A stretch of DNA of 52,568 nt from a virus: IMG/VR virus record IMGVR_UViG_3300017782_000023, positions 1-52,568 of that record; one strand, written 5' to 3'. A model generated the notes under the pieces. It was given only the letters and a program-made list of their open reading frames with translations, did not search any database and was not told the DNA's origin. Made by a program: the position numbers and the translations under genes. Position 1 is the stretch's first letter; each line of letters opens with the position of its first letter. Shown here one piece after another: positions 1,979-52,568 of the stretch.

Positions 1979-1979
1979 T

Positions 1980-8928: not shown

Positions 8929-8930
8929 AT

Positions 8931-12698: not shown

Positions 12699-12699
12699 T

Positions 12700-28570: not shown

Positions 28571-30265
28571 CTACGAGGCTCCGTATATAAGTACACGTCT
28601 CGTACCTGCTCCAGTACATGTAATAATTAATTCGTTGTTTGCTGATATTCTAACGCCGTTTCCTAGTTCCTGAAAACTGTCTACAGAGCCAGAGTCCAAT
28701 GAAGTCGGTTTATCGATAGTGGCTGTTAAAGAGCTATCAGATAGATCATACTCATACACTCTCCCAAGAAAACGATTACTTGAATCTCCGTAGCGACGAT
28801 CTCCTATAAATATTTGAGAATTATTAAAGTCGAGATCAAACCCAAACATAGTTTCGTTGGTAACGTTATTATATACCTCCCCACCAGTATTTGGATTTGT
28901 AAAAGTATTCTCAAGACTGCCAGTAGATGTATTAAATACGTAAACACGTCCTAAGCCTTTCTGCGTGGTTGCATCCGAAGAAGCACGAGGAAGATTCCTA
29001 AGTGCAGTTACGGCATACTTGCTGCCATCTGAATTAAACTTAACAAGATGTCCAAAATTAGGAGGAGAATCTGAATAGTAAGTAAAGTCAGAGGGCCAAG
29101 AAGTTTTTCTTAGTAAACTACCATCAGATAAATCGTAAATATAAACTGCTCCTACATAGTCATTACTTGAAACACTTTCTTTTTGGTGACTTACAATAAG
29201 ATACTCGCCGCTCATATCCATACATGCCCCAAAGTGGTAATTGGCGTACCCCGAAACAACAGTAGTAGGATTTTCAATAGTTCTCTCTAGAGACCCATCT
29301 GATAAGTTGTAAATATAAATTATACCTTTTCTAGACGCGGAAGTAGCGTTATTCGATGCAATCGCAACATATGTATTATTGCAGGCAACTCCATTACCAA
29401 AGTAGCCATTAGAGACATTTGTAATAGGGTTACTATGTGTTCTTATTAAACTTCCCGTTGCCGCATTGTATATATCAACCACACCTGTTCTAGTATATGT
29501 ACCGGTCGCTGGCTCGTAATAGGAGCCAGCGGCTAATCTGGTGCCATTGGGAGACAGCTGTAATGAATATCCCAGCCAAGCAACTGCATCTCTACCGGAC
29601 TCGGCGGATATACTTCTCTCGTAACTTCCATCATCTATAGAATATAAATGTATTTCTTGGTCTGCTGCTGTTGTCGAACGCCTAGGAACGGCTAAACGAT
29701 TGCCCCCTACGCTAATCTCTGAGTCTTGTCTGTCGAAGAAGAAGGCGTTATTATCGGGGTCTGTTACAGCTCTTTGATAGGTTACGTCTATACCAAAAGA
29801 TAAGCTAAATGCTGCTGCGGCACTAACTGCTCCGTTAGTACCATCAGTAGCACTAAAAGTAAGAGTAAAGGTTCCCCCAGTCGAAGTAGAAGGAGTTATA
29901 GTGAACACATTATCTGCTTGTGATACAGTAGCCGTAGACCCCAAAGCCCCTGTTGTAACAGCATAGGACCATGTAAGAGGAAATCCTTCGGGATCCGTTG
30001 ATACAGCCGTAATAGTAGTTGCTGTGCCGTCCCCTGAAAGATCATAGCTGGAATTAACTCCTGTTATACTACTTGGAGCATTATCTTGTACTGTCGCAAT
30101 TAAGTACCAACCGGATCCATTGTACAAAAACAACTTATTATTAGCACTGACATAAGCTTGATCTCCTGCTGCCATTCCTGTTAAAGCTGTTAAAGCCGCC
30201 ATATTAGCCACAGTTGTAGTAGTTACACCTGCCGATATTGTTTTAATGTCTATATAATTTGCCAT
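28571..30265 (-). CDS. Tail adhesin with Ig-like domain and propeller-like repeats
   Basis: This 564-residue protein has four parts: an N-terminal module of about 60 residues ending KLFLYNGSGWYLIA, where a short linker begins; an Ig/cadherin-like domain (about 70-160, TDPEGFPLTWSY to FTLTFSATDG) closely related to that of the 16973 gene; and about 390 residues of WD/FG-GAP-like repeats with YIYNLSDGSLER, YIYDLSDGSLLR, YEYDLSDSSL and VYVFNTSTGSL. These repeats suggest a beta-propeller head of about seven blades. AGGT precedes the ATG, and the gene lies directly upstream of the large fibre at 28561. It is probably a receptor-binding component. Confidence 0.75.
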   Translation of the reverse strand: MANYIDIKTISAGVTTTTVANMAALTALTGMAAGDQAYVSANNKLFLYNGSGWYLIATVQDNAPSSITGVNSSYDLSGDGTATTITAVSTDPEGFPLTWSYAVTTGALGSTATVSQADNVFTITPSTSTGGTFTLTFSATDGTNGAVSAAAAFSLSFGIDVTYQRAVTDPDNNAFFFDRQDSEISVGGNRLAVPRRSTTAADQEIHLYSIDDGSYERSISAESGRDAVAWLGYSLQLSPNGTRLAAGSYYEPATGTYTRTGVVDIYNAATGSLIRTHSNPITNVSNGYFGNGVACNNTYVAIASNNATSASRKGIIYIYNLSDGSLERTIENPTTVVSGYANYHFGACMDMSGEYLIVSHQKESVSSNDYVGAVYIYDLSDGSLLRKTSWPSDFTYYSDSPPNFGHLVKFNSDGSKYAVTALRNLPRASSDATTQKGLGRVYVFNTSTGSLENTFTNPNTGGEVYNNVTNETMFGFDLDFNNSQIFIGDRRYGDSSNRFLGRVYEYDLSDSSLTATIDKPTSLDSGSVDSFQELGNGVRISANNELIITCTGAGTRRVLIYGAS

Positions 30266-33200: not shown

Positions 33201-36200
33201 GTTTGCTAGTGTTAAAGTACCAGTTACATCCTCTGTACCGTCAAAAGCACCTGATGTATAGGTTGCATCGCCAGTGATTGAAATAGTCCTACCTGCTGCT
33301 AATGCTGTCGCGGTCGGTGGCGTAGTACTTACTGATGTAATTCTACCTTTAGCATCAACTGTAAGTACTGGTACTGCTGTTGCGCCCCCATAACTTCCTG
33401 CTGTTGCACCGCTGTTTGCTAGTGTTAAAGCACCAGTTACATTGCCTGTACCGTCAAAACTACCTGAGGTATAAGTTGCATCACCAGTGATTGCAATAGT
33501 TCTGCCTGTTGCTAAAGCGGTTGCCGTACCCGCATTACCAGAAGTGTTTTGGTTTCCTGTTGTATTAACGCCAGGCAAGTCTATATTTGCAGATCCGTCA
33601 AAGGATACACCACCAATAGTTCTTGCAGTCTCAAGAACTGTCGCGGTGGCTGCAGTGCCTGAAGTATCCTGATTTAGCGTCGGGACTCTAGCTGCATTAA
33701 TGGTACCGGTTGAAATATTTGTTGCATTTAAGTTAGTTAAAGATGAACCATCACCGCTAAAATCGCCTGTAAAAGTTTTAGCACTTGAATCAACCATAAC
33801 AGAATTGTCACTTGCTTTAACATCCCCAGTTAAGTCTCCAGCTACGTTACCTGCAAAAGTTGTAGCTGTTACTTCATTTGTACTCGGGTTAAACCTTAAG
33901 CCGGTATCTGTATGTATAGATTGAGACCCAGTTGCCCCAGAGGACATGGTAATATACCAACTAGCATCAGTATCCTCAGAGCCTGTCAAGCTCAAATTAG
34001 TGGATGAAAGATTAGTAATTTCAAGCTCATTAGACGTTGTGTTAAACTCTACGCTAGCCCCTACATGATTAGAGTGCTCTAGTAAGCTTCGAGCCTGAGT
34101 AGTAACCCTTGCATCAGTGTAATATAAATTACTAGAGCCTTCACTTAAATCGTCTGTATCCTTGCTTGATAATACCAAGTTTGCGCCAGTTTGTAGCGCA
34201 ATTCTGGCATCTGCTCTTGCGTTTGTAAAGTATAAGTTTGAACCTTCACTTAAATCACCTGTGTCTTTAGTGCCAATCCTAGTGTCAAAGTCGGAGTTCG
34301 CTCTACTAGATGTATAGTATAAATTACTTGAACCTTCCGCTACTGTATCAGTATTGCCCTGTGTAAATGTTAATACACCAGTGCCACTATTATAGCTTAG
34401 TTGTGTCGAGCCTTCGCTGATAGCCCCTCTGGCTCTTGCATTTGTAAAGTATAAGTTTGAACCTTCACTTAAATCACCTGTGTCATGGTTAGCAATACTA
34501 GTTACGGTACCAGTTACAGCACCTGTAAATGTAGCATCAGTACCGTCTGTACCTGCCTCAAGTATTTTACTAGTACCGTTACTGGCATACACATCCCCCG
34601 TTAAATCACCTGTTAAATCACCTGCAAAACTAGTTGAGGAAAGTACAGATGTAGATGGATTAAAAGAAAAAGTGTTTTTTGACTCAAGTTTAGAGTCTGT
34701 AATGTTTAGTTGATGGTACAGAGGTTGGGTGGTTGTACTAAGTACTTTTGAAACAATAAATATACTTTGTGAAGCGTCAAAGACTAAAGCATTTCTAGAT
34801 CCTGACCTTACATTAGTAGAGCTTATTTGAGTCTCAGAGGTAAATGATATATCCGAACCTGTAGCAACAGCTCTCTTAAATACGTACCCTCCACTGGACT
34901 TATCTGCTAAAAGTATTACTTCTTTTGTTGTAGGATCATTTGCTAAAACCATATCCTTATAAAACGAGGAATTAAGAATTACATCTGATCCATAAGTATG
35001 AGTACTACTAGAGCTAGATACAATAACTTTTCTATACTTATTGCCATGGACTATTATACCAAGCTTATCGTCATTACTTTCTGTATACTCTATATCTCCT
35101 AAAGTACGGATTACCCCTGAGTCTTGAAGAGTAGCAAAGGGCAGACCCTCTATGCCTGAACTAGATAGAGTTGTTCCACTACTTGTTAAAATTCTTGTAT
35201 TATTGTATCCATTACTTTGTGAAGGGTTACTAACGCTTGCCAGTCTTTCGCCAATAGCTACAATAAATTTATTTGCAATACCTGACCAAGATGCATCAAT
35301 ATTCATTGCATCATTCTCAGAGACGTCAGTAGTAGCAAAACCAGTGTTTGTTATAGGAAAACTTCCTCCTGACCCAGGAGCTCCTGCTAAGTCAGAAATG
35401 CTTGAGCCACCTGCAAAATTTGCTCCTGTGTAGGTTGGCCCTGTAGTATAACCCCTACCAGTATTTGTCATAGTTATACCGGTTAGATAATACTTACTAT
35501 CTCCGGATTCGAATGTCCAGTCAAAAGTACCTGTTGCTTGCGCACCCCCGGGTAAATCTGGAGCACTAAAAGTAGGAGTAATTTGTGTTCTAAGGCTGGA
35601 ATCGCTCTGAGCAAGACGCGGAGTTCTATTACCTGAGTAAGTTGCATCAGGGGCAGAAAAGTAATTCGTCATTTGATCCGTAGTACTTACTCGCCTATTA
35701 ACCATTGCAAGCTCAGAGCCTAAAGTAATTGAACCTTCGCTCGAAATATTTGCAATTAATGCTATCGGGTTTCCGTTTGTATCAATATGAGTAACAAGAG
35801 TTCTATTTGTAGAAGTATCGGTAGGATCTCTTGTAATACTAATAGCACCTAGTAAAGTATCAGAACTCGTACTTTCAACATTAGTGGAAGCACCGAATGT
35901 TACTGTAGAACCATTAAAGGTAAGCACTCGTAGTGTATTTACCTTATTTGAGCCACTAGCTTCTGTCAAACTTATTAGAATGTTTGAAGAAGGATTAAGA
36001 TCCGCTAAAGTTATTTGTCCGTATGAAGGTTGAGTATTGCTGTTTGCTCTTTGCGCACAGACAATATTTCCATTACTATCGGCTGCTGTAGTAACATTTC
36101 CCCATGTAATACTTCCCGAAGAATATGTACCAATGCTGTATTTTAATACACCTGAACTTGTCTGGGCCCAGAATGCAAGATACTTATTGTAAAGCTTAGA

Positions 36201-39200
36201 ATAGTATAAAGACGGAGCGTGAGTATGTATATTATCGGATGAATTAGATACAATTGTCGCACCTGTTGTTACACTATCTGCATTTGGCTTTAAAAACGGT
36301 ATTTCATGAGCAGCACTTACACCCTCCGAAGGAAAAATACTGGCGTTTCTTGCACGAGTAGCTGTACCTGAAAGAGTACCCGATATATTGAGTACCCCTG
36401 TCGCACTTTTTAAAGTATTAGTAGAAGGAATATAGTTTAGTAAAGAGCTTATCTCTATAGATTGAGGAGAAGCTGTCCCATCAACAAAAGCAAGATAGTG
36501 AGTATCTGCACTAGACTCTTGAGTAGTAATAGCCACTTGAGAGGCTACAGAAGAAGACCCGCTAACATTTCCTACAAATGAAGTGGCTCGGAGAACTCCG
36601 GTGCTCGGATTGTATGTAAGTGGATTGATATCTCCGGATACACTTAAATCTTTTCTTAAACCATGGTAATCTACAGAGCTAATTGTCTCCGCCGTAGCAT
36701 CTCCAAATATAATCGGAAAATCGGAGTTAGTTGTATCCGTTTCAGTTACAGCAACTTTTGTAGACTTTGTTGATATACCGGTAAATGTAGCATCAGTACC
36801 ATCTGTACCGGACTCAAGTATTTTATTAGTACCGTTACTAGCATATACATCTCCGGTTAGATTGCCAGTAATTGCACCAGTAGTTGTAAATGCGCCTGCT
36901 GTCATAGTACCTGATACTATAGGAGCATTTACTAAACCAAATGTAATTGTATTGTCACTTACCGTTGTTGTTACTTGGTTTGTTGTTCCTGAGAAAGCTA
37001 ATGTTTGCCCTGTTGTAAAAGTATCATTAGAACCAGAATCAGCACTTAACGTAAATGAAGAGTTGACGTTTGAAATCTCAGTATCAACGTATGCTTTAAT
37101 AGATTGTTGAGTAACACCAAATTGATCTGAGTCATCAGACATTGAATCATCGTCTAAGAACCCTGAAACTGCAATATTATTAGTACCTTTGAAGGAAGCG
37201 GCCGTAATAGCACCTGCTTTTAATGCACTTGCTGTGCCTGTAAAGGTATTTGAACTTTCTGTGGCATCTGCAATGAATACAAATTCACTTGCTGAATCAT
37301 CATAACCAAAGAAACCTTTCTTTGCGGACGAACCATCGTGCCAATTAAACTTTATGCCTCTGTCCAAGTTGTCATCAGATGAAATTGCTGGATCACCTAC
37401 TTCAAAAATAGGATCATCAACTTGAACTGTTGTACTGTTTACCGTGGTTGTTGTACCGTTTACTGTAAGTGTTCCGTCTACTACAATATCATTGCTAAAA
37501 GTCTTATTGCCTGAAATAGTGGCAGCTATAGAAACTCCATTACTATCTACTTCTAATCCGCCATTAGTTTTAGGCTGTACAGAAAGAGTTAGAGCTCCTT
37601 GCGTGTTGCTATTAGCTTCTAATATACCGTTCCCAGCAGTTATAGAGGTAACGCTAGCTCCGTCCAAGCCATTTACAGTTGCACCGTCAAAATCTACAGT
37701 CGCATTATCAAAGTCTATAGTTACGCCGCTATTGAAACCTAAGTTGCCCGTTAGAGTGCCACCACTTATAGGAAGAGCATTATCTGCTTTAGTACCCTGA
37801 GCATCCGTAGCATAATCTGAAGAATCAAATGCTTTTACTTGAGCAAGATTAGTTACTTCAGAATCCATCAAAGCGCCAGCGGCTGTTACATTCGTAGTAT
37901 CCGTAACATCTGCACTAGCCTCAACTCCTGATAGCTTAGTTTTTTCAGCGTCAGTAAACGCATTCGTATCTGAGTTGTTTTCATAAGCTGTTTTAATTTC
38001 AGCGTCAGTTTGATCAGCGGTTGCGCTGGCTTCAATGCCATCCAGCTTAGTTTTTTCCGAGTCAGTAAACGCATTAGTATTTGAGTTGTTCTCATACGCT
38101 GTTTTAATTTCAGAGTCAGTTTGGTCAGCGGTTGCACTAGCCTCAACTCCTGCTAGCTTAGTTTTCTCGGAGTCAGTGAACGCATTAGTATTTGAGTTGT
38201 TCTCATACGCTGTTTTAATTTCAGAGTCAGTTTGATCAGCGGTTGCATTGGCCTCAATTCCTGATAGTTTAGTTTTTTCAGAGTCAGTAAACGCATTAGT
38301 ATCTGAGTTGTTCTCATACGCTGTTTTAATTTCAGAGTCAGTTTGGTCGGCGGTTGCGTTGGCTTCAATACCGTCAAGCTTAGAGCCGTCTGTAGCAACA
38401 TCACGCCCATCAACAGTTCCACCCACGGTAATATTTCCTGATGCGGCAATATTTACAGCGGAGGAAATAGATCCAGAAGATATACTTAAAGTACCGTCGC
38501 TAAGAGCAGGAGCAACTAAAGAATCTGTTGAGTTATCAAAGTAAATACGAGAGTCACCCTGTAGAGTTCTAATACCTGAGCGACCGTCTGTTAGGACAAT
38601 ATTTCTATGGCTGGCCGGAACTGTTGGGTTCGTAGTATCGTCAGTATTTTTCTGAACTACAACAGTTGTAGCTACACTAGCAGTCGGAGCAACTGCGTTA
38701 CTATCAAAAGTTCCTGCAAAAGTTCCTGCAAAAGCTCCCTCAAAGTTACCTGCAAAATTACCATTTAAGTTACCTGCGGTAATAGTGTCCTTTCCTGGAT
38801 TATAAGTAAATGCTGAACTTGCAAAAATATCAGACGTTCCAGTTCTTGAATCTACAAAAGCCATGAAATGGGCAGCATCCAGCATTACGGTGCCTGTTCC
38901 CGACCCATTAGCTGATGCAACAAAGTCTGTTTGTATAACTGTCCCTGTGCCCTGACTAGCCGCAGGAGTTTCTACTACGGTTCCGGTTCCAGTACCCGCT
39001 CCCGTTGCTGTAAAAACTGCTCCAATATCGTTAGAGGTTGCCCCTATTGCTAGAAAGTTAGAGGTGCCGGGAGATACAATTCTATATTCTTCTCCGGCAG
39101 ATATTGCATCAGCCGAAATTGCAGTGCCTGCACTTCTTGCTTTAAATATCTCCCCTACGGAAGGGGTAGGGGAGCTTCCATAAGCAATCCAATTAGACAA

Positions 39201-39893
39201 AAGTAACACAGTACCAGTGCCTTCGCCTGTAGAACCAGATTTTGTGAAAACTGTTCCTACATTATTATCTGCGGCACCTATTTGAGTAAAGTCAGTAGTC
39301 CCCTGCGATACTATCTGGTATACAAAACTATTTTCAGCAGTATCAACGTCCTGAGCGGTACCCAAGTTAGTAATTAGATACTCATCGAAGGAAACCAAAC
39401 CATCATCTATGCCAAACTGAGAGGCGCCGATACTAGTCCAATTCGTATTTCCTGCGCTTTTAATAACATAAGCCGTTGCATTTACAATATCCGCCGCAGG
39501 AATAGTTGCGTCCTGTACGCCGATTTCAGCAACAGGAGTATTTTCAACAGTAGTAATAGAAGTTATTCGACCCTGTTGGTCTACAGTTATTCTAGGTATA
39601 GTACTAGACGTACCATATGTGCCCGTAGATACAGAAGTATTATCTAAGTCTATAGTAACTTCATCAGGAGTTACAGTTGTAGTTATACCTACACCACCTG
39701 ATATACTTAGGGTATCTGCACCTATTTCTACTGTATTTGTGCTACCAACATCTGCTGTAATAGCAAAGGAAGCTCCGGACAGTCCTATTACGTTATTCTG
39801 CCATACACCTTTGCTTGCATTGTAAGTCCAGGTTATGTCCCCCGACGTGATAGTATCGCCGTTACTAGGGCTTGAAGGAAAAGTTAAAGCCAT
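30270..39893 (-). CDS. Giant modular tail fibre (3207 residues)
   Basis: This is the longest gene of the window. It begins with the SPSNGDTIT module. Next are degenerate repeats of GTSNFLAIGATSNDIGAVFT type, then four and a half 37-residue repeats (KLSGIEANATADQTDSE...). A stretch of about 100 residues around VDGTLTVNGTTTTVN comes before a large region with propeller-like repeats (about nt 34700-36300). Later there are DLSEGSNLYFTNARA repeats, one TIGGVSFDG repeat, three copies of DVYASNGTSKILEAGTDG, paired NHPFDGSANVDLTEA modules, DTAPSSPSTGSLW-like and a final beta domain ending NGWVLINR. No S74 domain is present. At about 3200 residues it is far larger than typical phage fibres (500-1300). 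GGAG precedes the ATG. Confidence 0.9.
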   Translation of the reverse strand: MALTFPSSPSNGDTITSGDITWTYNASKGVWQNNVIGLSGASFAITADVGSTNTVEIGADTLSISGGVGITTTVTPDEVTIDLDNTSVSTGTYGTSSTIPRITVDQQGRITSITTVENTPVAEIGVQDATIPAADIVNATAYVIKSAGNTNWTSIGASQFGIDDGLVSFDEYLITNLGTAQDVDTAENSFVYQIVSQGTTDFTQIGAADNNVGTVFTKSGSTGEGTGTVLLLSNWIAYGSSPTPSVGEIFKARSAGTAISADAISAGEEYRIVSPGTSNFLAIGATSNDIGAVFTATGAGTGTGTVVETPAASQGTGTVIQTDFVASANGSGTGTVMLDAAHFMAFVDSRTGTSDIFASSAFTYNPGKDTITAGNLNGNFAGNFEGAFAGTFAGTFDSNAVAPTASVATTVVVQKNTDDTTNPTVPASHRNIVLTDGRSGIRTLQGDSRIYFDNSTDSLVAPALSDGTLSISSGSISSAVNIAASGNITVGGTVDGRDVATDGSKLDGIEANATADQTDSEIKTAYENNSDTNAFTDSEKTKLSGIEANATADQTDSEIKTAYENNSNTNAFTDSEKTKLAGVEASATADQTDSEIKTAYENNSNTNAFTDSEKTKLDGIEASATADQTDAEIKTAYENNSDTNAFTDAEKTKLSGVEASADVTDTTNVTAAGALMDSEVTNLAQVKAFDSSDYATDAQGTKADNALPISGGTLTGNLGFNSGVTIDFDNATVDFDGATVNGLDGASVTSITAGNGILEANSNTQGALTLSVQPKTNGGLEVDSNGVSIAATISGNKTFSNDIVVDGTLTVNGTTTTVNSTTVQVDDPIFEVGDPAISSDDNLDRGIKFNWHDGSSAKKGFFGYDDSASEFVFIADATESSNTFTGTASALKAGAITAASFKGTNNIAVSGFLDDDSMSDDSDQFGVTQQSIKAYVDTEISNVNSSFTLSADSGSNDTFTTGQTLAFSGTTNQVTTTVSDNTITFGLVNAPIVSGTMTAGAFTTTGAITGNLTGDVYASNGTNKILESGTDGTDATFTGISTKSTKVAVTETDTTNSDFPIIFGDATAETISSVDYHGLRKDLSVSGDINPLTYNPSTGVLRATSFVGNVSGSSSVASQVAITTQESSADTHYLAFVDGTASPQSIEISSLLNYIPSTNTLKSATGVLNISGTLSGTATRARNASIFPSEGVSAAHEIPFLKPNADSVTTGATIVSNSSDNIHTHAPSLYYSKLYNKYLAFWAQTSSGVLKYSIGTYSSGSITWGNVTTAADSNGNIVCAQRANSNTQPSYGQITLADLNPSSNILISLTEASGSNKVNTLRVLTFNGSTVTFGASTNVESTSSDTLLGAISITRDPTDTSTNRTLVTHIDTNGNPIALIANISSEGSITLGSELAMVNRRVSTTDQMTNYFSAPDATYSGNRTPRLAQSDSSLRTQITPTFSAPDLPGGAQATGTFDWTFESGDSKYYLTGITMTNTGRGYTTGPTYTGANFAGGSSISDLAGAPGSGGSFPITNTGFATTDVSENDAMNIDASWSGIANKFIVAIGERLASVSNPSQSNGYNNTRILTSSGTTLSSSGIEGLPFATLQDSGVIRTLGDIEYTESNDDKLGIIVHGNKYRKVIVSSSSSTHTYGSDVILNSSFYKDMVLANDPTTKEVILLADKSSGGYVFKRAVATGSDISFTSETQISSTNVRSGSRNALVFDASQSIFIVSKVLSTTTQPLYHQLNITDSKLESKNTFSFNPSTSVLSSTSFAGDLTGDLTGDVYASNGTSKILEAGTDGTDATFTGAVTGTVTSIANHDTGDLSEGSNLYFTNARARGAISEGSTQLSYNSGTGVLTFTQGNTDTVAEGSSNLYYTSSRANSDFDTRIGTKDTGDLSEGSNLYFTNARADARIALQTGANLVLSSKDTDDLSEGSSNLYYTDARVTTQARSLLEHSNHVGASVEFNTTSNELEITNLSSTNLSLTGSEDTDASWYITMSSGATGSQSIHTDTGLRFNPSTNEVTATTFAGNVAGDLTGDVKASDNSVMVDSSAKTFTGDFSGDGSSLTNLNATNISTGTINAARVPTLNQDTSGTAATATVLETARTIGGVSFDGSANIDLPGVNTTGNQNTSGNAGTATALATGRTIAITGDATYTSGSFDGTGNVTGALTLANSGATAGSYGGATAVPVLTVDAKGRITSVSTTPPTATALAAGRTISITGDATYTSGAFDGTEDVTGTLTLANSGATAGTVGSATAIPIITVDAKGRITATSTATPAGGSPTSIAGNTTTSSPSVIPGTETLTIKGDGTILTSVAADVGGVPTIAFSIEDSSIPNGKLQNPSITVTDGSNSTSTALGGTITFSAGEGIDVTEASGTITIAAEEATSSNKGVARFDASDFTVSSGVVTLKASSVADGDLVEDYIKASEVDDSSIEFTSNSLNIKATGVTNAMLAGSIANDKLANSSITINGSAIELGGTVSTSDTMGAGFVVEDGDGTEVTITENKQLKFVDNNEININFNDTDSGADGDEFDLAFTLATNGVTGTKISSSATTDSARAIGTDHIKTDAVTGDKIADNAVALSTQTTGNYVATIAGTANEVEVSGSGTEGAALTIGLPDNVTVAGNLTITGDLAVNGNNTIVETTNLSVEDPLIELARGNTTSDSLDIGFYGIYDTSGSQDLYAGLFRDANDSGKWKLFKDLQAAPTTVVNASGTGYTVGTLVANVEGDVTGNVTGDVYASNGTSKILEAGTDGTDATFTGTASTATVATTVTVGTEQSDNALYYIPFVDSQSGNLSLKTDNTFYYNPSANRIFAGNVQGTFIGNVTGNVTGNITGNITGGLTGDVSGNAGTATSLQISRNFTIGATNHPFDGSADVDLSEALQDAVGAMFTGNTELGTSVTYDDVDGTLDVTTNALYNGTTKLADTTSTAITVYGHILPDATETYDLGSPTARFRKGYFDAGTIFLGTQEITASSDTISVSGNFTASNITGDVTGTVTGSADTLTTARNITVNSVNHPFDGSANVDLTEAIQDTVGAMFTSNTETGITVTYDDSDGTIDLIVTGGSASAGDPIVTISESAPSSPSTGSLWFDPSNLTTYIYYNDGNSAQWVELSTPTSGGGGVVKFAEQTSSTTLVAGTKKIVDTSSSAITLTLPGTASIGDEVHIIDGTGDASTNNITIARNGHKIQGAAEDLIVSTDRAAFQLVYYNANNGWVLINR
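37905..38381 (-). repeat. Tandem 111-base coding repeats in the giant fibre
   Basis: Four full copies and a partial fifth encode KLSGIEANATADQTDSE plus IKTAYENNSNTNAFTD. The repeat boundary recurs at 38381, 38270 and 38159, exactly 111 bases (37 codons) apart. This kind of repeat is seen in phage fibre stalks. Confidence 0.9.
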
Positions 39894-42836: not shown

Positions 42837-45800
42837 TTAAGTTAATTTTCCGAGACGCACTCTTAACACATTATTCGAGTCTTTAATGTCTATTCTGGTA
42901 TTGCTACCGTCAAAAAACATAGTAGAGGCACTCGATGCTGTGGATGAAATAGTTAGCTGCTCTGCATCAATACTTCCTGTTTTTATATTTGCTCCATCAA
43001 TAGAAGTAGCGGCAGTAGCTCCATTAATAGCAGTGGGCCCGCTAGAGAATGTACCATTACTAAATGTTACTACCCCTGTAAAGTTAGTATACGCAACAAT
43101 AGAAGAATAAGTAACATTAAAACTAGAACTTCCTGCGGTAGTTTCTGTGCCAAAATACCTAATTGTATGATGCGTATTGGAGCTAGTAGGAACTTGAGGC
43201 CTGGGCGAGTTCCTCCAGCAATTCGTAGTTCCATTGTCATTTATATTACCCCCTGAAACTACACCCGTTGAAAAAGTATACAAATTGCCGGTAGGAGTAG
43301 GAACTGAACCACTCGATTTTTCATAGTATAAATAGCCTTGTACGGTACGTAGTCCCGCAGCGCCATCAGTCCCGTCCTGTGCAAGCAAAGAAGAAGGAGC
43401 CCATTCACTGCTTGCTATAGTATCTGATGATAGTCTGCTAATTGCTGCTGCCTGAGAGGTCCACAGATAAGCCCCACCAGTGGAAGGAATATTCGAGCTC
43501 CATCCATTTGCAGTTGTAAAAGAAATATTTCCACTAGAAAAGGTATAAGTGGTATTACCTGAGGGTAAACTGCCAGAACTACTGCTACTATTGTTTTTCT
43601 TATAAATTCGCACTGTGGCACTATTAAAACCATCTATACCGTCTTCTCCATTTTGAGAAAGAATTACGGGGGAAGACCACTCCCCAGATCCTACGGTATC
43701 TGATGTTCCGGTGCCAGAAGCGACAGCAGCCACTATATATAAAGCGGAATTACCGCTAGGGATATCTTTTTGCCAGCCATTAGACAAGCTGGTTGTTGTA
43801 ATTTTACCTGTTTGAAGACTAACTTCTACGGATCCGGGATTAGAAGTTATCGCGCTTGAAGACCTTTGATATGCATATACTAATGCGGTTTTTGTTCCTG
43901 CAGGTCCATCACTTCCGTCTTGCGCGATTAAAGAGCTCGCAGCCCATTCACTACTTGCTATAGTATCTGATGAAGTAGTACTGGCGGCTGTAGCCTGTGA
44001 AGTCCATAAGTATCCGCCTCCGGTGGAAGGAACTGTAGAGGTCCAACCATTGGAAGTTGTAAAAGAAATATTTCCACTAGAAAATGTATAAGTAGTGTTA
44101 CCAGAAGGCAGGCTGCCGGAGCTAGTGCTACTATTATTTCTTTTATAGATTCGAACTGTGGCGCTATTAAGCCCTGGATCCCCTGCCTGCCCATTTTGGA
44201 CAAGAATTACTGGGGAAGACCATTCCGTAGCTCCTATAGTATCGGAAGTACCTGTTCCTGCAGCAGAAGCAGCTACAACATATAGAGGGGCAGTGCCGCT
44301 AGGTATAGTTTTAGACCAACTATTAGCCAAAGTACCTGTTGTAATTTGTCCAGTCTCTAAACTAACCGTTACTGCGCCCGGATTAGAAGTTATTGCACTT
44401 GAAGACCTTTGATATGCATATACTAATGCGGTTTTTGTACCATTACTACCAATAATACCTGCTCTAGCCTTAGAATAAGAAAAAGTCTTATTAAAAACAG
44501 GGCCTCCATGATTAATAGTTATAGGTATACTTAAAGTACCTGAGTCATTACTCGATAAAACTGCTGTAATATCAACTTCAAAATCTAATGCAGGACTCGA
44601 GCCTACAGTTCCTGTAGAAAGTGTTAAACCATTGGAAGGGCTCTGAGTGACAGTTCCTACGGTATAGGTATTGTCTGCTGGATCTGAAGAATTATCATAA
44701 TAGTATCTGATATCCCCATTAAATACGTTTACCGTAAAGTCAGCTCCTGCTACGGAAGAGACATTACCTGCAGGATCTGCTTGAAATACATGAGACTCGT
44801 GACCTAATAATGCCGAATAACCGCCCTTAGGCTGAGCACTGGAAAGATACGGATCAAAAGAATATTCTCCCGATGAAAAAGTAACTTCCCCTAATATAGC
44901 GTCTGCTCCTTTATCAGGGTTAAATGCAGGGGTGTAAATATTTACGCCAGACACAGTACGAGTAAAAGGAGACCCAGCTTGAAGTTCAGTATCGCTTATA
45001 ACTCGTCGCACAAGCTTATATTCTGCAGCAGCAGTTTCAGTGCCGGGAGCTCCCGCAGAAGTAACTTTTATTAACTGACCTTCACTAATATCAGTAAAAG
45101 TAGTAGAAGAGCCTATCAATCTATCCGAACCTGAGACCGTACTAACAGTGCCCGATACATTTAATAAACCATTATTAGAAGCAGCTCTTTCTTTAAAGTA
45201 AGATGCCTCCGTCTCATTTCCGTCTATATCTTCTACAGTTTCATCAGTATGTACAACAAAACTACGCAGAGGATTAGTAGAGCTGCTAGAATCAAAATAA
45301 AGATACATAGTATCAGAAGATGACATGCCAGAAAAACTTTCTGTTCTCTGCGCAGAAGTAGCATTGCTGAAAACTATAGGCGCGGCAGCAGGGGGAGTAA
45401 ATCTAAAATTACGAGAGTTTATAGTAAATACTCCCGTTGTAGAATTAAAATTAAAGGGGGCACTAAGATCCCCGCCCTGAGCCACAGATTGTATATTTCC
45501 GGTAGAAATAAGAGGACTGCTAATTGCAACATTAGCTATTTCCCAGGCAGATTTTGCTCCTAAAGTATTTACGGTTCTAACTTTTACAGTGTAAGAGCCA
45601 GCCGCTACATTAGATATAGCAAAAGAGGTCGAGCCTTTAGGAGCCTCTACTGTTGTCATATTTGCAGGGCCTGAGCCGTTCGGCAAAAGGTCATGCGAAA
45701 TTTCAAAACGCTCTATAAATCTATAATTTCTTGTGCGAAGAGATCCTGAAGAATCAGTATATGTTTCTGTAGGAGGAGTCCACCCTATAATACCTTGATA

Positions 45801-48797
45801 GGCGGAGGTTTGACCCGAGGCAGAGGGATCACCTATAGGCGACATTTCTAAGGAAACCCCGCTTGGAGGAGGAACAGGCCCGCTCGCCTCTGTAGCAGGT
45901 ATGTAATCAGTAGTGTATGTTGGAATAGATACATCTATTTCATCAAACTTTAGCTCATCATATTGAGTAGCAGATATAGAGTATTTACCTGCTCCATCCT
46001 CTGCTAACCCGGCTACCCTGAAAGTTTTCAAGTTGCTGCTATCAGAGGTGTCTCTAGTTATAGCCCATATATAGTCTTGCAGTGGGGCTTGCGAAAAAGC
46101 ACCACTTACAGTAATACTACTAGCTGTTGTGCCTGTATTAGTAATATCTTTAACCTCTACACGACTATTCTTACTAAACTGCACATCTATATGATTACCA
46201 GCATTATCAAAGTAGTTTACTGCACTTTCTGCAGTAGGGGGGTTATTTACTAAATCTATGAGATTGTCGTCCTCATCCCTGACCTCGGGAAGAAAAGCTC
46301 CTCTAGTGTAAGTGGGAGGCGTGCCTCCCGTTCCTATAGTGGCGGAATCTTGCGCTAAGTATACTGAGGCACCTGGAAAAATAATATGCAGCTTACAGTC
46401 AGTTCCTGCTGTATTTCCTGGACCAAAGTCTACTTCTCTATCCAAAGCTATAGTGGAGGTCGTACTGCCGGAGGACACTCTTCCAGATGCTTCAATATTT
46501 TGATCGTCTTTATCCTGAATATTGATTATATCACCGGGTCTTAAGAAAGAAGCATTTATACCTGTAGTAAATGAAACAATTTCGGTTTCTTTAGTGTCGG
46601 TGTAAAGGTGCCACTCAGCTAGTCTAGAGGCTTGGGACTCGGACGTGCAGCCAAAGGCTACAATATCCTGGGAAACTACTTTACCTTGCAACACTATGTT
46701 TGCCGTGTCTTCTACAGTAAGAATTGTTTTCTTGTAAAACTCATCAGGATTATTCCATGTAACATTAATTTGGTTAACTCTCGCTCGCTGCCCCGTATAA
46801 GTATACTCAAAAACACCCTGCTCTACATTAGCCTTAGTAAAGGTATAAACTGCCTCTTTTGGAGAATCCTGTACTCCTACAATCTTACCATCAATCCAAG
46901 CTAACATGCCTCGAAAAGAGCTGGCGAGATCTTTCAGTACTTTGTAACTCTCTTCGATAGTAGATAAGTACACATTGCAGGAGAATCTTGGTTCTTGACC
47001 TCCCTTACCGTCAGAAACTAGTTCATCACAATATCTTGCAATTTGATAAAGAGAAAACTTATCTATGTCATCTTCACTGATAAACTGTCCTAACCCATAA
47101 TCCTTGTCAGTAAGTATATCATAAAAAACCCATGCAGGATTATTGCAATATACTTTGCGAAAATTAACATGTGTAGGAGAAAGGCTTTCATCCCCCCTAA
47201 AAGATCCTGTCCATGGAACATAGCTATTAGAATCTGCTCCCGCGCTGGTTCTAGTATATTTTGCCGAAGCTGTGCCTGTCTCTTCGCGAGTTATATAGTT
47301 ACTAGGGACTTTAATTTTTTTGCCATAAATATGGTAAGATCTGCTGGGAGGGGTTGTAAAATCTTCTGCGGAGTAGCCTACAACTGCATAAGCTGAAGTT
47401 GCATAATTAAATTTATTTTCTATAATTGCTTCGTAGGAGTCTATAGTTGCATTTAGTACAGCATCATTATCATCACAGTAGTCTTTAACGCCTTCAGGGC
47501 TCAGGCGCCTAACTTCTAGGCTCCACGAACTAAAAGGTTGGTATTTCTTAACGTCGACATCATATGTTGCTATAAACGCAGGGTTATTTCCTTTTTTCTG
47601 AATTAATCCAGTATTTCCGCCATTTGCTACACGCCCTCCTCCCGGATACTTATATAGAGATAGGCCTACACCTCTAGTACTGCTGTTAGCTACAGTAGAA
47701 GACCAATTAGGCACACTTTGCAAAAAATCACTTCCCCCATAGTCTCTCCCGTGAACTAATACAGAGGTGGCTGAAGAAGCGCCTTCTGTGGTATACTTAA
47801 ATACTACTTGGAACTCTGCATAGGCAGTTACATCTTTTCCCTTTGAATCTATATGTCGTAGTCCGCCAGGAAATTTAATATTTACTTTTAGTCTATCTAT
47901 TTCGCTTGCAGTGTATTGCCCTAAGGAGACATTTGAGGATACTAATGCTCCCGCAGAGGGGCTTTGCGTACCCTGTCCAGATGGAGCATTTACTGCATTA
48001 ACAAGTTTTAGGGGCTGGTTAACTTGATATACAAAACCCGCACTTTGAGAACTGCCTACTGAACTCTCATACTCCTCACCAAATCGAGTACCTCGAAAAA
48101 ACGAAGTTTTAACATTATCATAAGCTAAATTTTTGCCGGAGTTTTGTATATTGTATATATTGTCGACAGAAGCAGAAGATACTCGTACTATTCCGCCACT
48201 AATGCTCGTGGGAACACTAGATACAAGGGTTGCGGCTCCATTGTTAGTAATAGAGGATATTTTTATAACTTCATCAACAGTTATGACAGTACCGTTTGCA
48301 ACACTAGTCTGAGGAAGGGGCCATATTAGAGCATTAGTAGATGAGTTTATAGTTCTTACAATACCTCGATATTCAGTTCCATCAGGGCCTGCTCCAGGAA
48401 TACGAACAAAGTATCCTGCGGACGATAAAACACTAGCACTTCCCCCTCTAGGATCCGAAGTGTGTTTTGATTGAAATAATGCGGAGTTTACATTAACTCT
48501 TGCAAGACCTCTAGGGAGCGCTCCTGCAAGGGTGGAACTTCCGCCACCCCCTTTTATTTCTAAATACCTATCTCCGTCATTTAAATCTATGTCTGCAAAT
48601 AAGCTTCCCGCACCCGTAACGGAAGTACCAGAAATATTTGCAGTAGAAGACCTACCTGTAATATTGCCGTTTGCATCATCAAGAAGAGCAGTGCCATTTA
48701 GATACACACTAGCTTGCCCATTAACTAGGCCCCCTATTTCACCACATGCAATTAAATCTACAATACTAGCGTGTTGATTTTCATATATTGCTGGCAT
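42837..48797 (-). CDS. Lambda J-like tail-tip / host-specificity protein
   Basis: This very large tail-tip protein (1986 residues from the ATG at 48797; a longer form from 48827 overlaps the upstream gene) follows the I-like gene, as J does in lambda. The N-terminus (ENQHASIVDLIACGEIGGLVNG) and the region around the Asp-rich turn LRPGDIINIQDKD match the central part of J-type proteins. A fibronectin type III-like domain follows (about residues 970-1085, GWTPPTETYTDSSG). The C-terminal third contains a 181-residue tandem duplication and a final section ending RVRLGKLT. J forms the tail tip and recognises the receptor. It is longer than lambda J (1132 residues). Confidence 0.88.
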   Translation of the reverse strand: MPAIYENQHASIVDLIACGEIGGLVNGQASVYLNGTALLDDANGNITGRSSTANISGTSVTGAGSLFADIDLNDGDRYLEIKGGGGSSTLAGALPRGLARVNVNSALFQSKHTSDPRGGSASVLSSAGYFVRIPGAGPDGTEYRGIVRTINSSTNALIWPLPQTSVANGTVITVDEVIKISSITNNGAATLVSSVPTSISGGIVRVSSASVDNIYNIQNSGKNLAYDNVKTSFFRGTRFGEEYESSVGSSQSAGFVYQVNQPLKLVNAVNAPSGQGTQSPSAGALVSSNVSLGQYTASEIDRLKVNIKFPGGLRHIDSKGKDVTAYAEFQVVFKYTTEGASSATSVLVHGRDYGGSDFLQSVPNWSSTVANSSTRGVGLSLYKYPGGGRVANGGNTGLIQKKGNNPAFIATYDVDVKKYQPFSSWSLEVRRLSPEGVKDYCDDNDAVLNATIDSYEAIIENKFNYATSAYAVVGYSAEDFTTPPSRSYHIYGKKIKVPSNYITREETGTASAKYTRTSAGADSNSYVPWTGSFRGDESLSPTHVNFRKVYCNNPAWVFYDILTDKDYGLGQFISEDDIDKFSLYQIARYCDELVSDGKGGQEPRFSCNVYLSTIEESYKVLKDLASSFRGMLAWIDGKIVGVQDSPKEAVYTFTKANVEQGVFEYTYTGQRARVNQINVTWNNPDEFYKKTILTVEDTANIVLQGKVVSQDIVAFGCTSESQASRLAEWHLYTDTKETEIVSFTTGINASFLRPGDIINIQDKDDQNIEASGRVSSGSTTSTIALDREVDFGPGNTAGTDCKLHIIFPGASVYLAQDSATIGTGGTPPTYTRGAFLPEVRDEDDNLIDLVNNPPTAESAVNYFDNAGNHIDVQFSKNSRVEVKDITNTGTTASSITVSGAFSQAPLQDYIWAITRDTSDSSNLKTFRVAGLAEDGAGKYSISATQYDELKFDEIDVSIPTYTTDYIPATEASGPVPPPSGVSLEMSPIGDPSASGQTSAYQGIIGWTPPTETYTDSSGSLRTRNYRFIERFEISHDLLPNGSGPANMTTVEAPKGSTSFAISNVAAGSYTVKVRTVNTLGAKSAWEIANVAISSPLISTGNIQSVAQGGDLSAPFNFNSTTGVFTINSRNFRFTPPAAAPIVFSNATSAQRTESFSGMSSSDTMYLYFDSSSSTNPLRSFVVHTDETVEDIDGNETEASYFKERAASNNGLLNVSGTVSTVSGSDRLIGSSTTFTDISEGQLIKVTSAGAPGTETAAAEYKLVRRVISDTELQAGSPFTRTVSGVNIYTPAFNPDKGADAILGEVTFSSGEYSFDPYLSSAQPKGGYSALLGHESHVFQADPAGNVSSVAGADFTVNVFNGDIRYYYDNSSDPADNTYTVGTVTQSPSNGLTLSTGTVGSSPALDFEVDITAVLSSNDSGTLSIPITINHGGPVFNKTFSYSKARAGIIGSNGTKTALVYAYQRSSSAITSNPGAVTVSLETGQITTGTLANSWSKTIPSGTAPLYVVAASAAGTGTSDTIGATEWSSPVILVQNGQAGDPGLNSATVRIYKRNNSSTSSGSLPSGNTTYTFSSGNISFTTSNGWTSTVPSTGGGYLWTSQATAASTTSSDTIASSEWAASSLIAQDGSDGPAGTKTALVYAYQRSSSAITSNPGSVEVSLQTGKITTTSLSNGWQKDIPSGNSALYIVAAVASGTGTSDTVGSGEWSSPVILSQNGEDGIDGFNSATVRIYKKNNSSSSSGSLPSGNTTYTFSSGNISFTTANGWSSNIPSTGGAYLWTSQAAAISRLSSDTIASSEWAPSSLLAQDGTDGAAGLRTVQGYLYYEKSSGSVPTPTGNLYTFSTGVVSGGNINDNGTTNCWRNSPRPQVPTSSNTHHTIRYFGTETTAGSSSFNVTYSSIVAYTNFTGVVTFSNGTFSSGPTAINGATAATSIDGANIKTGSIDAEQLTISSTASSASTMFFDGSNTRIDIKDSNNVLRVRLGKLT
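43356..44441 (-). repeat. Tandem duplication of 543 bases inside the J-like gene
   Basis: Two units of 181 codons, 44441-43899 and 43898-43356, carry GTKTALVYAYQRSSSAIT and later GSLPSGNTTYTFSSGNISF. Each unit itself holds two related sub-units. Stretches such as GATATGCATATACTAATGCG are identical in both copies exactly 543 bases apart. Confidence 0.85.
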
Positions 48798-48799
48798 AA

Positions 48800-49450
48800 T
48801 TAAAGACCCCCCTCTATAAAGGTCCATCGAGACCCTGTGTCAATATTTTTCGCATACTCTGCACCCCCTGTGTAGGATACACTTATAGGCATGCCTCCTA
48901 CTATAAGTTCTCCATACGCTACCGGAACAGGGAGCCCTTGCGATATCGTATTTTGTGGACCATTAAATAAATAAGAAGGATCTGTGCCTTCGTCTGTCTG
49001 AGGACCAGGTGCTAATAGTTGTGTTATTCCAGCAATTGCTAGATTGACAGCGACCATGGTCAGCCCTACAGTCGCTGACGCAACGAGAGCACCTTGTGTA
49101 CTTGTGCCAGTTAATGCAGCAGTAAACGAGCCTGGTAGCAGAATAGCAACAGTTATAATTGCAATTGCTGCTAAAATCTTAGATCCGGCACTCTTTGAAC
49201 CTGCAGGAACTTCAGTAATAATTATATCTTCATTATTTAAGGATAAAAGCATCTCTTCAGGCTCTTCTAAAAACTCCTCACCTCTTTGTATCTCAAATCC
49301 TACCCCGGCTTCCGCGGCATCTACTAGGTATTTTCTAAACCCAGGAGTCTGACAATCTATTAGTCTAAAAATATCTCTAATATTAGAGCACTCGGCCTCC
49401 CAATGTGGACCAAATTTTTCTATTCCTCCAACTAAATAAACTGATTGCAT
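48800..49450 (-). CDS. Lambda I-like tail assembly protein
   Basis: This 216-residue protein corresponds to lambda gpI. The N-terminal half is soluble and acidic (SNIRDIFRLIDCQTPGF, RGEEFLEEPEEM). Two hydrophobic helices follow (AIAIITVAILLPG and VASATVGLTMVAVNLAIAG), and then a C-terminal part with PVAYGELIVGG. AGGA precedes the ATG. It overlaps the K-like gene by 19 bases and ends just before the J-like start, the lambda order K-I-J. gpI is needed for tail-tip assembly and is thought not to remain in mature virions. Confidence 0.85.
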   Translation of the reverse strand: MQSVYLVGGIEKFGPHWEAECSNIRDIFRLIDCQTPGFRKYLVDAAEAGVGFEIQRGEEFLEEPEEMLLSLNNEDIIITEVPAGSKSAGSKILAAIAIITVAILLPGSFTAALTGTSTQGALVASATVGLTMVAVNLAIAGITQLLAPGPQTDEGTDPSYLFNGPQNTISQGLPVPVAYGELIVGGMPISVSYTGGAEYAKNIDTGSRWTFIEGGL

Positions 49451-50136
49451 CTTACTATCCTATGTAAATGTATACCCCATCCTGAGTGTAAAGACTCTCT
49501 GCAAGAAAGCCTATTAACAGCATGGTGTAAAAACATATCTTCTCCTATATATACTCCACAATGGTTGGGTACATTTGAAAATACTTTAAAAATTAGCGCG
49601 TCTCCTATCTTAGGAGAATCCACTTCTGTAAATCCGTATGACTCAAATAAGTCATCAAAATAATTAAACCCTTTTTCCCACCAGTCGTCTTCAAATACAG
49701 TTTTTGGCAACTCAATATTATACGTTTCGCTATAATAGTCCCTAAGTAGAGAGTAGCAGTCATACTTTCCAAATAAATAGTCTCTTCCTAATAAGGGCTG
49801 TCTTATCTTGGGTGGTGTGTATACAAATTTATCTACATCAGGTAAAGAATATATAATATAGGGTATTTCCAAGAAGTCACTGGCTTTTATATCAGATTCG
49901 CTAGGCTCACAAGAAGCATCAGGATGACTATGTACTATAGCTTGGACATCCCCTAGTAGAGCTGCTTTTGCATAATCCTTTGGAGAAATTACAAAATCTT
50001 CTTTAGGGTTTTCCGCAACATTCTCACAATGCCTCCAGACTAGCTTACCTCTTTTATTCAGTAATAATCCACAGCCCTCATTTGGGTAGTCATTAAATAA
50101 ATCTTGTACTATTTCTTTATCTACGCTGTCTAGCAC
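49432..50136 (-). CDS. Lambda K-like tail tip protein (JAMM and NlpC/P60 domains)
   Basis: From the GTG at 50136 (good GGAGG site) this is 234 residues. The N-terminal half is a JAMM/Mov34-type metallopeptidase (Glu20, H-x-H-P with His69/His71, and S-x-x-D with Ser79/Asp82). The C-terminal half is an NlpC/P60-type cysteine peptidase with Cys127 (KYDCYSL), His192 (NHCGVYIG) and a His at 204-205. Lambda gpK has this fused two-domain plan and is thought to act at the tail tip, perhaps digesting peptidoglycan during DNA entry. Both active sites look intact. The TTG at 50151 is a weaker alternative start. Confidence 0.9.
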   Translation of the reverse strand: MLDSVDKEIVQDLFNDYPNEGCGLLLNKRGKLVWRHCENVAENPKEDFVISPKDYAKAALLGDVQAIVHSHPDASCEPSESDIKASDFLEIPYIIYSLPDVDKFVYTPPKIRQPLLGRDYLFGKYDCYSLLRDYYSETYNIELPKTVFEDDWWEKGFNYFDDLFESYGFTEVDSPKIGDALIFKVFSNVPNHCGVYIGEDMFLHHAVNRLSCRESLHSGWGIHLHRIVRCNQFI

Positions 50137-51271
50137 CTGGAAATCCTCCAAAAGGTAATGCTATGTTTGCTTCAGTAATCGCTATTCCCCCAGTTACACT
50201 ACTATGCTCTCGTGCGTTGAATCTAAGAGAGCAGGACTTTATTTTCTTTCCACAGATATCACCTTCCGTCCAATATATACCTTCTTTAATAGTATCATGG
50301 CTGCCCCCAGTTTGGGTGAATTTATTGACTTGCCAAAGTTTTCCTGAGGATAAAATATAGTTACTATATCTACTGTCCCTATACGAATAATAAGTAGTTG
50401 AGGATGAATAGTTAGAGTATACTCGTACTCGTCTCCAACTAGCACTTGCATCATTAGGAGAAGTAGAAGTGGCTGAAAGTGCTTGCCAATAAGCTGTAAC
50501 AGTTTGATTACTAGAAGATGTTTTTGTTACTTGTACTTGAGTTTCATTAGTAATGTAGTAAGCTCCCTCAGTTGAGGTACCAGAGAATACAGACATACCG
50601 CTAAATATAGAGGCAGGTACAATATACTCATCAAATTTATTCATAAAAATTTTGTCTACATCTGTAGCAATTAATTTTTGATCCCAAGTACAGCCTCCTA
50701 TCTTGTCTTGCCTTTGAACATTGGAAGAAGCACCTCTATATTTAAAGGGGCAGGCGCCTCCAATAATTACCCTTCTAGGAAGCGTAATGCCGGCTAGATC
50801 AAAGGGGGCTGCTAGTTCAAAAGTGACAACAATAGCCGTTTTCGACTTTATCCTATCTATTACATAAGTCGCTTTCGGAAATTCTACTGGGGCGTTCCCT
50901 GACCCAGAGTCCCCAGTACCTCCAACTAAATATTTCTCTAAAGTTGTTCTTCTAGTAAGTCTCTTTCCTATTAACTCTTCAAAACCCAATCCCCCTATCT
51001 CGTTAGAGAATATCGAGCCTAAATTTGCTACAGATATCTCAGGTCTAGCATATGACCCGTCTGAAGACACCTCAATACCCTCCATCTCTATAGGAATGGC
51101 TACGTATGTGAGTATATTTCCTTCCGAATTTCTAAACTCTATATCATCACTATTTTCATCCACTCCCGCATGGAAGTGTGCAAAAGACCCCGGAGCATAC
51201 TCTAGGTCATATAAATGTATATATCCGGAGTTTATCTCTTGTTTCTGAACATCTTTAATTAGGTCACTCAT
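50117..51271 (-). CDS. Lambda L-like tail tip protein with iron-sulfur-type cysteines
   Basis: This 384-residue protein matches lambda gpL by order and motif. Lambda gpL holds a 4Fe-4S cluster with four cysteines in its C-terminal domain. Here the four cysteines are Cys174 (GGACPFKYRG), Cys194 (GGCTWDQ), Cys340 and Cys347 (GDICGKKIKSCS), in the same order. Between the second and third lies an insertion of about 145 residues rich in Ser, Thr and Tyr, much longer than in lambda. The M-like gene stop overlaps its start by four bases, and it overlaps the K-like gene by 20 bases. Confidence 0.88.
   Translation of the reverse strand: MSDLIKDVQKQEINSGYIHLYDLEYAPGSFAHFHAGVDENSDDIEFRNSEGNILTYVAIPIEMEGIEVSSDGSYARPEISVANLGSIFSNEIGGLGFEELIGKRLTRRTTLEKYLVGGTGDSGSGNAPVEFPKATYVIDRIKSKTAIVVTFELAAPFDLAGITLPRRVIIGGACPFKYRGASSNVQRQDKIGGCTWDQKLIATDVDKIFMNKFDEYIVPASIFSGMSVFSGTSTEGAYYITNETQVQVTKTSSSNQTVTAYWQALSATSTSPNDASASWRRVRVYSNYSSSTTYYSYRDSRYSNYILSSGKLWQVNKFTQTGGSHDTIKEGIYWTEGDICGKKIKSCSLRFNAREHSSVTGGIAITEANIALPFGGFPGARQRR
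50145..50149 (-). promoter_or_regulatory. Ribosome-binding site that supports the K-like GTG start
   Basis: On the minus strand GGAGG lies eight bases before the GTG at 50136, inside the coding sequence of the L-like gene. The upstream TTG at 50151 has no comparable site. Confidence 0.7.
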
Positions 51272-51642
51272 GCTTCGTAAACCCTTCTAATCGTAGCTGT
51301 GCAGGAATAAAAATCATTATTATTGTAAGAGACACTAAATGTATCAACTACAGCCTTAATCGTAGTCTCTGATCCTAATGAATTAGTGTCAGGAACTGTA
51401 AAGCTAAAAGCGGTGACTCCCTCTTTTGCACTAAAAAAGGATGCTATATCGTCTATCTCTGCTTTTGGTCTATTATTGAAGGAAACAGAGTATTCCTCTC
51501 TTAAATTATTTATACCAGCAACCGCCCTCTGCTCATATCCGTCTCCAAAAGAAATTCTATTCACATGAGGAGTAACAGTCCTAGCCATTGTTCTATCAGG
51601 AATTCTTCGTGCATTACCTAAATCTAAAAATCCTAGTGCCAT
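51268..51642 (-). CDS. Lambda M-like minor tail protein
   Basis: This 124-residue protein belongs to the lambda gpM family of tail-tip proteins, a small beta-rich protein thought to bind the end of the tape measure. The conserved parts are RISFGDGYEQRAVAGIN, SFNNRPKAEIDDIASFF and AFSFTVPDT. Length is about that of lambda gpM (109). GGAG precedes its ATG, which overlaps the tape-measure stop. Its stop overlaps the start of the L-like gene by four bases (ATGA), indicating translational coupling. Confidence 0.9.
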   Translation of the reverse strand: MALGFLDLGNARRIPDRTMARTVTPHVNRISFGDGYEQRAVAGINNLREEYSVSFNNRPKAEIDDIASFFSAKEGVTAFSFTVPDTNSLGSETTIKAVVDTFSVSYNNNDFYSCTATIRRVYEA

Positions 51643-52568
51643 TACGCTGCTCCATATCTACTAAGTATACCGCCCGGACGTTTTTGCTTATGCAGCTCTT
51701 CTTGAACCACACTAGCAACAACTTTTCCTAAAGCGGCTGCTTGATTCTGTTGGGATGCTTCATTTTGCGTGCTACTTGCATTCCCCTGATTATCAATATT
51801 AATATTAATTCCAATAGTATTATTAGAGGTACCCCCTCCTGTCATTTCTACGGGAATGGCATTACCATTAGGCAAAGGAACAACTGCTTCAGTTCCATGT
51901 AAAATTGCTGGGTACCCTGCGTTTCTTCCTCTTGCTATGCCGCCCTCTGAGTAGCCTTTTGCAATACCACCATATCGACGACTTGCGAATCCTATGCTCT
52001 TGGTAGCGTTAGCAAATTGTGCGCTTGCACCAGCACTTGCCTGATTAGCTAAATTTTGAGTGGGGGCTACTGTAGTACCCACTCCTCCAAAAGCAGCAAG
52101 TAGTAATCTTGCAACAAGCATTTCAGACACAATTCTTGAGATAATTCTTAATACGCTAAGTCCCATATTTGCAAATGCTTGCTTAACAGTCATAGTTCCT
52201 TGAACCAATCCATCTAAGCCGTTAGTAAGTCCTTGGGTTAAGCCGTCTCTTAATCTTTCTTGCATGTTTATTAAAACATTCAAAGATTCTTGCTGTTTAA
52301 TCTGCTCCTCAATAAGAGCTATTTGAGTAGAATCCATAACTACTCCAGCATTCTTTTGTCTCAGTATTTCATCATTTATTTTTTGTTGAATTCCGCTCAT
52401 AGAAAACATTTGAGACTGTACCCTCAAATTTTCTGTTGTTCCCAGCAGTTTATTACGTTCTACTTCTTCTAGACGCTGTGATATATCTAACTGCTGGCGA
52501 GTATTAAGTAAAGTCTTTTGAATTGAAGCTTCCTGAGCTAGTAGATTGGTTAATTTTACTTGATCCGC
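51642..52568 (-). CDS. Tail tape measure protein, C-terminal part (5' partial)
   Basis: The frame is open to the window edge, giving the last 308 residues. No internal start is needed: codons read continuously upstream of the first TTG-like start (52427) through LLNTRQQLDISQRLEEVER, and no stop occurs before 52568. The sequence has helical segments (IEEQIKQQESLNVLI), a hydrophobic stretch (IVSEMLVARLLLAAFGGVG) and a C-terminal part with GGIARGRNAGYPAILHG then TEAVVPLPNGNAIPVEM, a pattern frequently found at the end of tape-measure proteins. It precedes the M-like gene as in lambda (H-M-L). Confidence 0.85.
   Translation of the reverse strand, partial: ADQVKLTNLLAQEASIQKTLLNTRQQLDISQRLEEVERNKLLGTTENLRVQSQMFSMSGIQQKINDEILRQKNAGVVMDSTQIALIEEQIKQQESLNVLINMQERLRDGLTQGLTNGLDGLVQGTMTVKQAFANMGLSVLRIISRIVSEMLVARLLLAAFGGVGTTVAPTQNLANQASAGASAQFANATKSIGFASRRYGGIAKGYSEGGIARGRNAGYPAILHGTEAVVPLPNGNAIPVEMTGGGTSNNTIGININIDNQGNASSTQNEASQQNQAAALGKVVASVVQEELHKQKRPGGILSRYGAA

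Follow-up and report, generated by a model that had tools for sequence, protein, structure and literature searches.

Our analysis showed that the open reading frame at positions 50117–51271 of the window (the whole stretch of viral DNA analysed here, 52,568 nt) is a homologue of the lambda hub protein gpL, as judged by Pfam, synteny and the predicted fold of its N-terminal domain. We read this protein, taken as a whole, as a gpL-type Fe-S hub with an outward-facing accessory domain, and place the probability of this reading at about 0.8. The gene, its parts and its tail-tip neighbours are arranged as follows.

51642–52568, minus strand: C-terminal part of the tape measure protein, which runs past the window edge (phrog_1292, phrog_339 and others)
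51268–51642, minus strand: gpM-type distal tail protein gene, upstream neighbour of gpL (PF05939, E=2.7e-21; phrog_14)
50117–51271, minus strand: gpL-type hub (tail tip) protein gene, 384 aa (PF05100, phrog_18)
50777–51271, minus strand: N-terminal tube-like domain (HDI), residues 1–165, aligned to lambda gpL by VIA-align
50690–50776, minus strand: first segment of the predicted Fe-S domain, residues 166–194, with Cys174 and Cys194 (invariant in 68/68; low model confidence)
50255–50689, minus strand: inserted domain, residues 195–339, predicted to be beta-rich (pLDDT ~90 for residues 220–330; in 82 distinct relatives; no Pfam or PHROG family)
50204–50254, minus strand: second segment of the predicted Fe-S domain, residues 340–356, with the invariant Cys340 and Cys347 (motif DxCGKxxxSCxLRF)
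49432–50151, minus strand: gpK-type protein (JAB plus NlpC/P60), downstream neighbour of gpL (PF14464, PF00877; phrog_30, E=1.3e-81)
48800–49450, minus strand: gpI-type tail assembly/insertion protein (phrog_32, E=3.6e-37)
42837–48827, minus strand: gpJ-type central fibre/host specificity protein, 1996 aa (PF13550, PF24801; phrog_31, central tail fiber J, E=3.6e-130)

The Pfam family Phage_tail_L (PF05100) matched residues 32–184 of the gpL-type protein with E=8e-25 and 87.8 bits (cut-off 25), spanning only profile positions 9–156 of 206, that is, the part N-terminal of the insertion. The match to phrog_18 (minor tail protein) had E=5.1e-35, and the solved chains matched by the protein sequence were lambda gpL (8iyk_L), a T1 tail-tip chain (9l9p_J), F2-pyocin-BHP and 'hub protein gp21'. 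Comparison of the N-terminal domain of our 68-sequence model (residues 1–165) with 8iyk_L in VIA-align gave a Z of 14.7 and an rmsd of 2.8 over 148 residues, and matches of the whole model to PDB and viral structures fell mainly on the same domain (residues 2–163). Moreover, the tail genes, as assigned by Pfam and PHROG, run from the tape measure end through gpM, gpL, gpK and gpI to gpJ, which is the lambda order H-M-L-K-I-J. The likeness to lambda gpL thus comprises the N-terminal fold, the four cysteines, a last pair seven positions apart and the gene order M-L-K-I-J. An earlier note on this DNA had proposed a gpL-type Fe-S protein, and Pfam, synteny, the predicted N-domain fold and the invariance of the cysteines all back that proposal.

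The cysteines themselves are at positions 174, 194, 340 and 347, exactly where the earlier note had put them, and there are no others in the 384 residues. The last pair is indeed seven apart as in lambda, where the corresponding residues are Cys205 and Cys212 (PMC10721106). At the same time, the first pair is spaced differently, with a spacing of 9 in lambda (8 residues between) and 20 here (19 between), and the cysteine numbers given in PMC10721106 leave 22 residues between Cys2 and Cys3 of lambda gpL compared with 145 in the window protein. All four cysteines were invariant in the 68 aligned proteins (37 with the insertion and 31 short gpLs), where they make up four of 19 invariant columns. 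Of the 82 distinct proteins with the insertion, 81 contain the full set, with 13–30 residues in the first gap and 143–168 in the second; the exception (L258) is truncated at its 5' side by a contig end, starts inside the region and retains the last three. Together, the invariant cysteines and the recurrence of the insertion go beyond chance. The conservation of the cysteines is not due to close copies, since clustering the 82 proteins gave 30 groups at 70% identity and 10 at 50%, the most distant protein being 34% identical to the window protein. Model confidence was low around the cysteines, with pLDDT below 50 for residues 157–185 and 188–206 in the 38-sequence model and for 157–201 in the 68-sequence model (34–46 for 161–200), and about 54–56 for 341–370 in the latter. 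At this confidence the models do not show the four cysteines coming together, nor do they speak against it. From their conservation, we infer that residues 174, 194, 340 and 347 hold a predicted [4Fe-4S] cluster.

The stretch between the pairs had been described as about 145 Ser/Tyr-rich residues. The count from Cys194 to Cys340 is 145, and residues 195–339 are enriched not only in Ser (15.9%) and Tyr (8.3%) but likewise in Thr (12.4%) and Trp (3.4%), as compared with 8.4%, 3.3%, 4.6% and 0%, respectively, in the rest of the protein. Both of our AlphaFold models of the whole protein, made from 38 and 68 sequences, show the insertion as a single compact beta-rich unit (approximately 216–336) with pLDDT around 90. 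The idea of an extra domain exposed at the tip therefore stands as far as a compact domain is confidently predicted, whereas its exposure is suggested by lambda and RcGTA/R4C. Invariant residues in the region are W196, DEY214–216, Y239, W262, W313, W334, G337 and D338, mostly aromatic or acidic. Mean pairwise identity is 0.41 in the insertion and 0.55 in the N-terminal domain (687 pairs, each less than 95% identical), so the insertion changes faster, as would be expected for an outer decoration. It nevertheless appears to be under purifying selection, with an estimated dN/dS of 0.12–0.49 over seven pairs, estimates made with synonymous sites near saturation. We considered whether the insertion is a CBM5/12-like module duplicated in tandem and dropped the idea, as the halves do not align: their comparison gave only an overlap of six residues shared by both, and one of five column shuffles scored equally well.

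Relatives of the insertion were encoded in 233 IMG/VR stretches, of which 80 were kept; the family set consists of the 38 rows of our alignment A2 plus further distinct reading frames from 61 more distant loci among these 80. In 177 of 179 reading frames from the fetched loci the insertion adjoins the C3–C4 motif directly (the other two are cut by contig ends), a restriction to gpL that is partly built in because every locus came from a gpL or insertion query. Searched alone by tblastn, the insertion gave no match at E up to 1 in 50,697 cultured phage records or in 72,556 plasmid records, and of the 202 pattern matches in a scan of bacterial genomes, none was confirmed with our full-length alignment A1. 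Pfam has no family for it; DUF5122 appeared below threshold in four of seven more distant members, and no hit was common to the whole insertion family. PHROGs gave no consistent family (best E 0.00059; phrog_511 in 3 of 26 members), PDB sequences gave the insertion profile two chance-level matches only (E 0.14 and 0.32), CBM5/12 (PF02839) had no match at the gpL gene in 11 records, and our literature search found no paper on the insertion. By sequence, then, the inserted domain is a new family with respect to Pfam, PHROG and PDB sequences, and we do not claim a new fold. This unnamed domain is common to many uncultured viruses and a candidate for host contact.

A long insertion at this site, to which the earlier note had drawn attention, is unusual only in part: it has known counterparts of 81–91 and 247–275 residues in cultured phages, GTAs and their relatives. 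What is new by sequence is the domain itself. In the RcGTA hub (gp13), as described in PMC7296036, the ion-binding domain is split into residues 143–167 and 250–263 around an oligosaccharide-binding domain at 168–249. The R4C hub (gp14) is described likewise, as an Fe-S hub whose cysteine pairs have a domain between them (PMC10276861), and its sequence has cysteines at 147, 157, 244 and 251, leaving 86 residues between the pairs. The authors of both studies assigned sugar binding to these domains, for RcGTA from fold similarity (PMC7296036, PMC10276861). Among 160 GTA-type hubs, 155 fit our search pattern with a gap of 84–91, and the other five lie outside it with listed cysteines compatible with it. 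Thus the RcGTA and R4C hubs resemble the window protein in carrying a domain between the two cysteine pairs, but theirs is shorter and without detectable sequence similarity to ours; hhalign of the GTA-hub insertion profile against the window-family profile gave a probability of 0.3%.

Two phage hubs extend this comparison. The upper baseplate protein gp50 of JBD30 has Cys147, Cys156, Cys238 and Cys245 around a 'putative metal ion' (PMC11445458), and so shares the four metal-binding cysteines and a stretch between the pairs, though that stretch is shorter (81 residues by sequence, against 145); JBD30 attaches through type IV pili and has a different baseplate (PMC11445458). In the solved structures of all three hubs, RcGTA, R4C and JBD30, a metal cluster is present. 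On the other hand, gp036 of Synechococcus phage S-CBS4 and its relatives are gpLs with a longer insertion at exactly the same site (247–275 residues; about 260 in S-CBS4), which was not recognised as the window protein's domain and has at least two extra cysteines between Cys2 and Cys3 in all eight proteins examined, from 8 of 27 loci (for example L105, 2348–3742, and relatives among L189–L209). Short gpLs have 21–22 residues between Cys2 and Cys3 (31 examined of the 80 kept loci). The site therefore takes at least four length classes (21–22, 81–91, 143–168 and 247–275 residues) and is a hot spot of decoration. This agrees with the LSH1 paper, which describes the gpL C-terminal region as hypervariable and presumably near the cell wall (PMC13243795). 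The window gpL is a known kind of protein in a varied form, not a new machine.

With the four cysteines unchanged across at least four length classes at one site, the cluster looks like a staple that permits decoration of the hub. By analogy with lambda, three copies of the protein would form, together with gpJ, the final ring beneath that of gpM, with the N-terminal tube-like domain, predicted in fold, docking upwards. Below it, a small domain built from two chain segments would be stapled by one [4Fe-4S] cluster at Cys174, Cys194, Cys340 and Cys347. The chain would leave this small domain past Cys194, form a beta-rich domain of its own, about 145 residues long, and re-enter at Cys340; the cluster would then serve mainly to fasten the two segments to each other, allowing the loop to carry a domain with the hub undisturbed. 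We expect the inserted domain to point outwards from the tip, because the lambda Fe-S domain lies at the outer surface (PMC10721106) and the RcGTA and R4C domains occupy the same place in the chain. There its most likely partners, weakly bound, would be glycans of the cell envelope or neighbouring parts of the tip. Contact with the envelope is the least certain step, which we propose tentatively and at somewhat less than even odds. The comparisons with Pfam, PHROGs, CBM5/12 and the GTA inserted domain gave nothing that speaks directly for glycan binding.

Alternatively, the insertion could be a structural clamp inside the tip, bound to gpJ, gpI or side-fibre proteins, with no host contact. We consider this a serious possibility, although on the unlikely side. 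The lambda hub is packed against gpJ (PMC10721106), the invariant aromatics of the insertion could be core residues, and the low dN/dS estimates (0.12–0.49 over the seven pairs) would suit such a part. At the same time, the insertion is less conserved than the N-terminal domain, and the RcGTA and R4C authors gave sugar binding as the role of the domains at this site, both of which argue against a clamp and in favour of an outward-facing accessory domain.

As for the cluster, the four cysteines might instead be ligands of zinc or another metal, or be joined in disulfides, which we consider unlikely. Metal identity cannot be told from sequence, the wording 'putative metal ion' was chosen by the JBD30 authors for the same four positions (PMC11445458), and the C1–C2 spacing is unlike that of lambda (19 residues between, against 8). 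However, lambda gpL, according to PMC10721106, was reported to carry a [4Fe-4S] cluster sensitive to oxygen, the hubs of RcGTA and R4C were modelled with Fe-S clusters (PMC7296036, PMC10276861), as was that of T1, and the cysteines of the window protein align with those of short lambda-type gpLs. We therefore retain a [4Fe-4S] staple as the preferred reading. The role of the cluster in siphophage tips is stated to be unresolved in PMC10721106. A more elaborate version, in which the insertion is a receptor-contact family mounted on the Fe-S staple and the cluster is a mechanical or redox-sensitive hinge, destabilised by contact so as to help the tip open, seems to us distinctly improbable.

Iron carriage, to which the earlier note had attached ecological interest, gains nothing here beyond what any gpL homologue would offer. 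Three hubs per tip, each with one cluster, would give the virion about 12 Fe, as in any gpL phage (arithmetic from the lambda model), and nothing in the insertion suggests more, as it has no cysteine. That the insertion carries iron or an iron mimic and so aids docking on iron-uptake receptors we regard as highly improbable: a likely Fe-S cluster at the tip is all that speaks for it here, although such ideas are in print for phage tails, and the insertion is without cysteine and without a known metal-binding family, with the same four cysteines present in short gpL homologues that lack it. The DNA polymerase of the window shares no more than about 45% identity with its best matches among phage records, led by Vibrio phages, and does not identify the host.

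Elsewhere in the window, two further features were mapped.

214–15734, plus strand: replication block with a DnaB-type helicase, primase, DNA polymerase, PhoH-like protein, SbcCD-type nuclease and ribonucleotide reductase
30270–39893, minus strand: 3207-residue reading frame flanked by tail-fibre genes, without a Pfam match of meaningful E-value

The 3207-residue product is probably a giant virion or tail-associated protein. Three other minus-strand reading frames, of 938 (16973–19789), 386 (20338–21498) and 564 residues (28571–30265), had no PHROG match. A sub-threshold CBM5/12 match (E 0.003, 14.1 bits) was seen at 28451–28528 (minus strand), at the start of a 1544-residue tail-fibre reading frame, and the same match occurs in an IMG/VR record with an identical gpL; of the 11 records, 2 gave sub-threshold matches of this kind, in a tail-fibre reading frame.

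Among the relatives, five gpLs (L264, L270, L277, L279 and L281) have a fifth cysteine eight residues past Cys1, near the lambda Cys2 spacing, beside the family's own Cys2. A 98%-identical gpL copy (IMGVR_UViG_3300021335_000256; L017, 701–1850) breaks frame near the start of the Fe-S region with the insertion open in another frame, which points to either an assembly error or a broken gene. Finally, the C-terminal part of the gpJ-type protein (window 43327–44400, minus strand) contains a tandem duplication with a period of 543 nt (181 residues), in which three repeat families lie in register at 72–80% DNA identity.
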